From contig JABCZR010000010.1 in NCBI GenBank assembly GCA_013289585.1, positions 62,001 through 126,000 on the forward strand: DNA of 64,000 nt, read 5' to 3'. Positions 52,302-53,877 of the stretch are shown piece after piece (position 1 is the first letter of the stretch; each line of letters opens with the position of its first letter). Below the pieces are notes generated by a model, which saw nothing but the letters and a program-made list of their open reading frames with translations, had not been told where the DNA came from and searched no databases. The DNA is from Acidobacteriota bacterium. Its GTDB lineage: Bacteria; Acidobacteriota; Terriglobia; Acidiferrales; UBA7541. A program made the position numbers and the translations under genes.

Positions 52302-52375
52302 TGGAGGCGCGAGGCGGAATCGAACCGCCGATAATGGTTTTGCAGACCATTGCCTTACCACTTGGCGACCGCGCC
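52302..52375 (-). tRNA. tRNA-Cys (GCA)
   Basis: Read on the minus strand from 52375, GGCGCGG begins a 7-base acceptor stem closed by TCGCGCC (last pair G-T), followed by T as discriminator and an encoded CCA (52304-52302). The anticodon arm GGTCTGCAAAACC has the anticodon GCA for cysteine; the T arm is GGCGG-TTCGATT-CCGCC. U73 is usual for tRNA-Cys. It lies about 205 bases downstream of the sulfurtransferase gene in the same orientation. Confidence 0.95.
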
Positions 52376-52580: not shown

Positions 52581-53465
52581 TTAGCGGGCTGCGGCAGCAT
52601 GCTCAGCAGTGGCGGCGCGGGTTTCGTTGACGATGGGGGCGCCGATCAGGTTGCCCCACTCGGTCCACGAACCGTCATAATTGCGCACGTTGTTGTAGCC
52701 CAGCAAATACTTCAGCACAAACCAGGTGTGCGAACTGCGCTCGCCGATGCGGCAATAAGCGATGACTTCATCGGAGCCCGTAATACCTTTTGGCTGATAG
52801 AGCCTTTGAAGATCCTCGAGCGACTTGAAGGTGCCATCTTCGTTGGCAGCTTGCGCCCACGGGATATTCGCGGCCTTGGGGATGTGTCCGGGGCGCTGTG
52901 CCGTTTCCGACATCCCTGGAGGAGCGATAATCTTTCCGGTGAACTCATCCACGGAACGAACGTCTACGAGCTGGCCCGGTTTGCGGCCTTCCACAACGGC
53001 GAGGACGTCCTCTTTGTAGGCGCGGAGGGATTCGTTGAGGCCAGAGACACGATAGGTGGCCGGCGCAACGCTGACAGGATCCTTGGTTACGGGGCGCTTT
53101 TCTTCGAGCCATTTCTTGCGGCCGCCGTTGATGAGGCGGACATCTTTGTGGCCATAGTATTTCAGTTGCCAGAAGGCGTAGGCGGCGAACCAATTGTTGT
53201 TGTCGCCGTAGAGGAGGATGGTGGTGTCATTGGAAATGCCGGAAGCGGCGAGAAGCTTCTCGAGTGTGGACTTGTCGATCAGGTCGCGGCGGATGTTGTC
53301 CTGGAGCTGAGTCTGCCAGTTCCAGCCAACCGCTCCAGGGATGTGGCCCTGATCGTAGGCAGTGGTGTCCACGTCGACTTCGACGAGGCGGAGATTGGGG
53401 GAATTCAGGTTGTGAGCAACCCAATCGGTGGAAACCAGAACTTCGGGATGTTTGTACTCTGACAT
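52581..53465 (-). CDS. Rhodanese-type sulfurtransferase (CRIGERS active site)
   Basis: A 294-residue tandem-rhodanese protein. The inactive N-terminal domain (about 5-125) has VEVDVDTTAYDQGHIPGAVGWNW; the C-terminal domain (about 160-280) has QLVDVRSVDEFTG and the active loop AYCRIGERSSHTWFVLKY with the sulfur-carrying cysteine. The CRIGERS loop is the type seen in actinobacterial CysA2/SseA-like thiosulfate sulfurtransferases. It moves sulfane sulfur from thiosulfate or a related donor. AAGGAGAAG precedes the ATG. Its roughly 200-base leader contains a Cys-codon upstream ORF and terminator/antiterminator elements, so it is probably induced by cysteine shortage. Confidence 0.9.
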   Translation of the reverse strand: MSEYKHPEVLVSTDWVAHNLNSPNLRLVEVDVDTTAYDQGHIPGAVGWNWQTQLQDNIRRDLIDKSTLEKLLAASGISNDTTILLYGDNNNWFAAYAFWQLKYYGHKDVRLINGGRKKWLEEKRPVTKDPVSVAPATYRVSGLNESLRAYKEDVLAVVEGRKPGQLVDVRSVDEFTGKIIAPPGMSETAQRPGHIPKAANIPWAQAANEDGTFKSLEDLQRLYQPKGITGSDEVIAYCRIGERSSHTWFVLKYLLGYNNVRNYDGSWTEWGNLIGAPIVNETRAATAEHAAAAR

Positions 53466-53507: not shown

Positions 53508-53550
53508 AAAAACGAAAAACCCACCTGCTCATTAGATTCTGGCGGTGGGT
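53508..53550 (-). terminator. Leader terminator of the sulfurtransferase gene
   Basis: On the minus strand ACCCACC and GGTGGGT form a 7-base stem (two more GC pairs possible around a bulged A), immediately followed by TTTTCGTTTTT. It lies between the upstream ORF and the sulfurtransferase ribosome site, about 45 bases before the ATG, so it can only act as a leader attenuator; the nearest minus-strand gene upstream ends about 1 kb away. Confidence 0.75.
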
Positions 53551-53657
53551 GGAAACTTTTGAGGCTAAGACGGACTCGCTAGATGCTCAGCCTCCCCGCG
53601 CCAGAAGACACACGCGTACAACACAGACAGCAGCATGCCATTTGCGCGTTCTTCTGG
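53537..53657 (-). promoter_or_regulatory. Cysteine attenuator: competing leader helices
   Basis: Three helices can be drawn on the minus-strand RNA. P1 pairs CCAGAAGA-ACGCG (53657-53645) with CGCGT and TCTTCTGG (53616-53601) across a 3-base bulge. P2 pairs GAGGCTGAG (53594-53586) with CTTAGCCTC (53569-53561). An alternative helix pairs TTCTGGCG (53606-53599, part of P1) with CGCCAGAA (53544-53537, part of the terminator's left side), and GGG (53597-53595) with CCC (53549-53547), leaving P2 intact between the two arms. This antiterminator and the terminator are mutually exclusive, the usual logic of an attenuator. Confidence 0.7.
53579..53641 (-). CDS. Cysteine-rich leader peptide
   Basis: A 20-codon ORF, too short for the ORF track, that starts ATG and ends TAG. 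Residues 1-8 are MACCCLCC: five Cys codons in six positions, followed by TRVSSGAGRLSI. It starts about 30 bases after the predicted transcription start and overlaps the strands of P1 and P2. A ribosome waiting for Cys-tRNA on codons 3-8 would break P1 and free TTCTGGCG for the antiterminator. The ribosome site is weak (AGAAGAA). Similar poly-Cys leader ORFs ahead of sulfur genes are known from mycobacteria; here the surrounding terminator makes the regulatory role likely. Confidence 0.75.
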   Translation of the reverse strand: MACCCLCCTRVSSGAGRLSI

Positions 53658-53677
53658 GGGTAAGCCAACATATGCGC

Positions 53678-53706
53678 ATGATACAAGGGATGGAGCGGGT
53701 TGGCAA
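53678..53706 (-). promoter_or_regulatory. Promoter of the leader peptide and sulfurtransferase
   Basis: Minus-strand TTGCCA (53706-53701) and TATCAT (53683-53678) are 17 bases apart, each one change from consensus. The start point would be near 53671, giving a leader of about 205 bases. Confidence 0.65.
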
Positions 53707-53877
53707 TAGTACTTAGGCGTGACTCTTCCAGGCCAGGTTGGGAGCGCTTGGCGTGGAATTGCGACCCTCGCGGGGATGCCGAAAAACCGAGCAGCGTGCG
53801 GCGTAGGTATATCTACTGTATTGACGGTTGCAGGATGGCGGGCTAATTGTACGCGTCCCTCAAGGAGGCTACGCAAA

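Follow-up and report, generated by a model that had tools for sequence, protein, structure and literature searches.

The window, a stretch of 64,000 nucleotides from the genome of a soil-dwelling member of Acidobacteriota, carries on its minus strand, in this order, a promoter, a cysteine-rich leader open reading frame (ORF), a terminator, a Shine-Dalgarno sequence, a rhodanese gene and a tRNA-Cys gene. The rhodanese gene (52581-53465, minus) has its Shine-Dalgarno sequence AGGAGA at 53478-53473 and encodes a CRIGERS-type thiosulfate sulfurtransferase with two domains and a CRIGERSSHTWF motif (PF00581, E 2.5e-34), whose best solved relatives are the rhodanese 1uar (1.2e-107) and the thiosulfate sulfurtransferases 3aax (2.4e-105) and 3hwi. 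The enzyme is likely to mobilise sulfane sulfur, from thiosulfate or mercaptopyruvate, for the supply of cysteine or other sulfur compounds, the substrate being inferred. The co-directional tRNA-Cys (GCA) gene (52302-52375, minus) lies 205 nt past the rhodanese stop codon.

The promoter (53678-53706, minus) consists of TTGCCA (53706-53701) and TATCAT (53683-53678) separated by 17 nt, as originally predicted. The prediction of a 20-codon ORF beginning MACCCLCC at an ATG at 53641 was correct in that an ORF is present, but its start failed, since all orthologs share one frame starting 10 codons 5' of this ATG (e.g. MSMFTQKNAPLCICCMCYMRVSSGAERLSF) and most have no internal ATG at that position (...LCICC...). 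The conserved leader defined by the aligned orthologs, MLAYPQKNAQMACCCLCCTRVSSGAGRLSI, comprises 30 codons from an ATG at 53671-53669 to a TAG at 53581-53579 (53579-53671, minus), and its frame, start and stop region are kept in 14/15 congeners. Within it lies a run of proposed sensor codons, TGC TGC TGT CTG TGT TGT (53618-53635, minus). In 15/15 congeners 6-7 nt (6 nt in the window) separate the -10 hexamer from the leader ATG, and the -35 hexamer begins 35-36 nt upstream of that ATG in all 15, so transcription is expected to begin at the ATG and to yield a leaderless ORF. No Shine-Dalgarno-like match precedes the leader ATG in 14/15 congeners; in three more diverged leaders (L070-L072) the gap from the -10 hexamer to the ATG is 8-10 nt. 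That the leader ORF is leaderless is thus probable, yet it is inferred from promoter spacing, the start site not having been mapped.

Fifteen species of the window's genus (g1) carry the leader at a constant position, and it also occurs in four acidobacterial genomes of greater divergence, of which three bear the label of Candidatus Acidiferrales or gp2 relatives. The named leader-bearing relatives are Acidobacteria MAGs, two of which carry the Candidatus Acidiferrales label. The best Cys density of an upstream ORF in the window was matched by 0/60 dinucleotide shuffles, and in 13/15 congeners, the window included, it was reached by 0-2/60. The two leaders that fail this comparison are L013, where three codons are deleted in frame and 4/60 shuffles reach its Cys density, and L011, which is interrupted by an in-frame TGA. 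Comparison of sequences supports the ORF, its Cys run and the promoter spacing directly. Seven same-genus rhodanese orthologs with 69-71% identity (L019-L025) are without the leader, and in other groups, at 75 named rhodanese loci, upstream Cys-rich ORFs mostly did not surpass shuffles unless they came from relatives of the window; the exceptions are L123 (Mycobacterium) and, more weakly, L080 (Deltaproteobacteria). As a separate observation, the TGA in L011 (genome G022) stands at the first Cys position, immediately before the Cys run (MQANPQKTTRTS*CCLCCMCASSGAGRLGI), and may represent a nonsense mutation, an assembly error or recoding.

Four segments of the transcript, all on the minus strand, offer alternative pairings. 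Segment 1 (CCAGAAGA, 53650-53657) has segment 2 as its partner (53608-53601), segment 2 (TCTTCTGGCG, 53599-53608) can pair with segment 1 or segment 3, and segment 3 (CCCACCGCCAGAA, 53537-53549) can pair either with segment 2, forming the antiterminator, or with segment 4, the 3' arm of an intrinsic terminator hairpin (CCCACC...GGTGGG) with a T run (53519-53511). This terminator (53515-53549) is supported both by pairing in the alignment and by the fold. A further hairpin, AGGCT/AGCCT (53562-53593), which covaries, lies between segments 2 and 3 and is stacked within the antiterminator. The minimum-energy fold of 53670-53465 includes helix 1:2 and the terminator (z = -2.04), and the Shine-Dalgarno site of the rhodanese gene sits outside the hairpins. 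Three structural elements of the original prediction held, namely a helix flanking the ORF, an intrinsic terminator just before the ribosome site of the gene, and an alternative helix of 8+3 bp that excludes both, whose pairing is present and covarying. One correction is needed: because the ORF starts 10 codons upstream, the 5' arm of helix 1:2 lies inside the 30-codon ORF.

These pairings were assessed in a structural alignment (A3) of 19 leader sequences. Helix 1:2 was paired in 93.8% of cells with both sides changed in 2 pairs, and its covariation score was equalled in 2/500 shuffles. The antiterminator 2:3 together with its inner AGGCT/AGCCT hairpin was paired in 92.2% of cells and showed two-sided changes in 5 pairs and 7 cells, the pairs being one of 2:3 and four of the five of the inner hairpin; the score and the number of changed cells were reached by 0/500 shuffles. 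It must be noted that the shuffles do not correct for the relatedness of the sequences. When, as a control, the partners were slid by 1-3 columns, pairing did not exceed 55.9% and no more than 3 pairs were obtained. At column 74 in segment 2, a T to C change in L070-L072 is matched by an A to G change in segment 3, and in L072 segment 1 has also changed from A to G, a case of a single base of segment 2 tracking both its partners. The terminator helix 3:4 was paired in 94.2% of cells and is too conserved for covariation; a GC-rich terminator hairpin with a T run is present in 19/19 aligned leaders, termination itself being inferred. Compensatory changes in both helices and in the hairpin between them support, by sequence comparison, an antiterminator that is mutually exclusive with its alternatives.

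The consequence of ribosome position was analysed by staged folding, in which the transcript downstream of the stalled ribosome is folded before segment 4 exists. A ribosome stalled at the main Cys codons favoured the antiterminator (probability 0.74-1.0), and with the ribosome at the stop codon the antiterminator probability was 0.00-0.02 in 13/14 g1 leaders with an intact ORF, the exception being L006 (0.48). In L070-L072 a ribosome at the stop codon left a probability of 0.37-0.87, and in four leaders the last Cys codon is at position 20 or 21, where a stall gives 0.00. The staged folding was run without a shuffled-sequence control. It replaced full-length equilibrium folding with a ribosome block, which was rejected as a test of the mechanism: there the terminator usually beats the antiterminator even with the block, because helix 1:2 closes around the ribosome and segment 4 is present from the start. 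Since the terminator usually wins at full-length equilibrium, the choice must be kinetic and settled while the transcript is being made, as it is in attenuators of the trp type.

The proposed sequence of events is as follows. RNA polymerase would initiate at or beside the leader ATG, with a ribosome translating the leader close behind. When Cys-tRNA is ample, the ribosome would reach the stop codon and cover segment 2, so that the 3:4 terminator forms and transcription stops; when the leader is not translated, segments 1 and 2 would pair, leaving 3:4 free to form and again giving termination. When Cys-tRNA is scarce, the ribosome would stall on the Cys run, in the loop that segments 1 and 2 enclose, and block helix 1:2, so that segment 2 pairs with segment 3 before segment 4 is made. 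Antitermination would then allow readthrough into rhodanese and probably also into the tRNA-Cys gene. This response, in which low Cys-tRNA turns rhodanese on by way of the antiterminator, was part of the original prediction and is supported by the conserved features and the covariation, while ribosome stalling and the direction of the response remain inferences from sequence alone. The locus is accordingly regarded as very likely a ribosome-mediated transcription attenuator sensing charged Cys-tRNA, for which no transcript, ribosome-profiling or reporter data exist.

The regulated unit can probably be extended beyond what was first predicted. A tRNA-Cys gene lies downstream in 13/15 leader-bearing congeners, the remaining two being L008, which has a broken copy, and L017, which has none in range, and a tRNA-Cys gene follows rhodanese in 0/7 g1 orthologs without the leader. 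A second tRNA-Cys is found elsewhere in the genome of the window. A crude scan of the interval from rhodanese to tRNA-Cys revealed no promoter-like site, but the gap of about 50-430 nt could hide a promoter missed by it. In genome G004, which has no rhodanese match, a leader (MTSLAKSNVATRLCCRCWGLIRSGEGRLIP) and terminator (L043) stand immediately upstream of tRNA-Cys without an intervening enzyme gene; only a few dozen bases separate the terminator from the tRNA gene, and no promoter-like site was found there. This arrangement and the downstream co-occurrence make tRNA-Cys a likely distal gene of the regulated unit, co-transcription being inferred. In the open-access literature searched, no paper was found in which a leader-peptide attenuator precedes the gene for the very tRNA whose charged form it senses.

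It was also observed that in L006, L008, L015, L016 and L018 the native tRNA-Cys, 3' of rhodanese, is split by an insert in the anticodon region, and that in 4/5 of these loci a second, different full tRNA-Cys lies ~100-200 nt further on. The pattern looks like recurrent integration of mobile elements bringing a replacement tRNA; no integrase was identified.

One may ask whether attenuation here is translational or Rho-dependent, as proposed for mycobacteria, instead of relying on an intrinsic terminator. In favour of this, mycobacterial leaders before cys genes have no conserved terminators (PMC1262725) and have been presented as translation attenuators (PMC13236596), and the leaders of rhodanese family f3 (L027-L029) have a GC hairpin without a T run. 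Against it, the T-run terminator is found in 19/19 aligned leaders, the Shine-Dalgarno sequence is outside the hairpins, and the target in L043, being a tRNA, offers no ribosome site that could be masked. This alternative is consequently considered very unlikely, and transcription attenuation by an intrinsic terminator is retained.

A covariance model (R1) spanning the switch core from segment 2 to the T run, with the Cys run excluded, was used for searches, on which the genome-wide counts rest; the window matches at 53513-53616 (minus) with 91.3 bits, its sequence being within the training set. R1 matched 95/299 Terriglobia genomes, often 2-5 times each, and 10/297 genomes in a phylum-wide sample, 9/10 of which are from the window's own class. 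The first genes at 77 examined loci were CysD (18), rhodanese (17), the nitrite/sulfite reductase family (12), aspartokinase (10), siroheme synthase (cysG; 3), TonB-type receptors (3) and TauE-like (2), with single cases of a sulfate-binding protein, an SsuA-family protein, sulfate adenylyltransferase (sat), a porin and others. Most independent matches precede sulfur genes, and in 55 of the 63 matches that were neither in the training set nor of the Thr type at least 3 Cys codons occur within 20 codons in the expected frame, that of the tail, compared with 8 and 5 in the other two frames. The in-frame enrichment of Cys codons at independent matches and the recurrence at sulfur genes are results of comparison, and the downstream genes (rhodanese and elsewhere cysD, the sulfite/nitrite reductase family, cysG, sat, and the sulfate-binding and SsuA-family proteins) fit a Cys pathway. 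The genome of the window itself has a second, more weakly matching Cys leader, MNTCCQNMCCPCTQNAACRMTSISGQRSFRT (L270, G000:C21:26343-28343, minus), ahead of a nitrite/sulfite reductase family gene. The Cys attenuator is therefore likely to be part of a class-wide set rather than a single case, an inference that rests on sequence alone. Separately, Cys leaders in L171, L189, L212 and L281 stand ahead of TonB-type outer-membrane receptors with carboxypeptidase-regulatory domains, which are candidates for organosulfur uptake.

The structured leader with its terminator could also be read as a metabolite riboswitch or T-box with cysteine or tRNA as its direct ligand, the ORF being incidental. No attenuator family was found in an Rfam search of the leader and ten sister loci, where nothing matched apart from the tRNA gene itself. 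Furthermore, the alternative helices are short and built from coding sequence, and Cys codons are enriched in frame at independent sites. These observations all but exclude a riboswitch or T-box and leave the ribosome-mediated attenuator as the preferred reading.

The switch core is not confined to Cys leaders. Contig C1 of the window's genome has an 80% DNA match to the Cys switch over about 52 nt; its interpretation as a chance terminator was rejected when it proved to be a Thr-codon attenuator, with the leader MLSTATKRITSTSSMSITSTTTKTTITASGAWRNS, before aspartokinase (L237, G000:C1:333314-335306, minus). The two attenuators share a CTTCTGG...AAAAGTTTCC...CCACCGCCAGAA core. A similar core with a Thr leader precedes asd in a single relative. 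Weak matches, each in a single relative, are a Leu/Val/Ile-type leader before acetolactate synthase (L277, G202:C71) and a Trp-containing leader before DAHP synthase (L283, G018:C179), both of which may be unrelated attenuators.

The Thr leader also bears on the hypothesis that the product of the Cys-rich leader is itself a functional small protein, binding metal or thiols, and that the conservation downstream merely reflects an ordinary terminator belonging to the same gene. Conservation extends from the Cys run to the peptide tail SSGAGRL, as would be expected of such a protein. However, the tail codons are segment 2 itself, and its non-coding complement, segment 3, covaries with it; the spacing of the Cys codons is variable, and the helices persist where codons have been lost (L013); and a homologous core with a Thr run before aspartokinase fits a codon sensor and not a thiol peptide. 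The small-protein hypothesis is hence very improbable.

Taking the leader as a codon sensor, a bolder reading is that Terriglobia possess a modular attenuator family in which one homologous core (2-3-4) is combined with exchangeable codon runs, Cys for the sulfur regulon, Thr for aspartokinase and asd, and possibly branched-chain and Trp runs, the Cys version in the genus of the window also controlling tRNA-Cys. As a joint claim this is favoured only by a narrow margin. If true, a shortage of charged Cys-tRNA would in this genus raise both the sulfur supply and the sensed tRNA. The findings suggest further that a switch core can retain its structure while the sensor codons are swapped.

In its plan the switch corresponds to the trp, his, thr and leu attenuators of proteobacteria, with a leader ORF carrying sensor codons, segments 1-4, a mutually exclusive antiterminator and intrinsic terminator, and the same polarity. 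It differs from these in sensing Cys, in the predicted leaderless ORF, in its occurrence in Acidobacteriota, in the probable tRNA-Cys target and in the one core common to Cys and Thr leaders in one genome. The Thr leader MLSTATKRITSTSSMSITSTTTKTTITASGAWRNS before aspartokinase resembles enteric thrL.

Polycysteine leaders are already known in mycobacteria, where leaderless small ORFs of this kind respond to cysteine (Canestrari et al. 2020, cited in PMC9031893, PMC9094748 and PMC13236596); they share with the present leader contiguous Cys codons, downstream sulfur genes and a leaderless ORF, which here is predicted. In Mycobacterium asiaticum (L123) a rhodanese of the same family has a Cys-rich ORF upstream, but this ORF does not share the conserved leader sequence of the genus of the window. 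In mycobacteria a conserved terminator hairpin was not found (PMC1262725) and translational attenuation has been described for them, whereas a conserved terminator with a T run is found here. Candidate Cys leaders in Actinobacteria were predicted in 2005 (Seliverstov et al. 2005, PMC1262725) and are likewise short ORFs with Cys runs ahead of cys operons, yet these have the Cys runs near the stop codon, lack terminators and belong to another phylum. A survey published in 2010 assigned essentially none of the attenuators of Acidobacteria (PMC2965389). In agreement with the original prediction, no prior report of a Cys attenuator set in Acidobacteriota was found in the open-access literature searched, which does not cover all journals. 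What is new, in the absence of expression data, is the Acidobacteriota set with an intrinsic-terminator switch; it assigns a predicted function to a set of the attenuators left open in that survey and predicts, for a major group of soil bacteria, which genes answer to the supply of cysteine.

Two other designs were observed 5' of rhodanese genes. In family f3 (L027, L028 and L029) very Cys-rich ORFs (e.g. MGRCRRVLSCLCCCRFCCALCPCSCSGGPR) have a stop codon that runs into a GC-rich hairpin without a T run, a different Cys-leader design. In family f6 (L030 and L031) the leader ORFs end in CCC or CCCR directly before the stop, a layout like that of the Actinobacterial Cys leaders.
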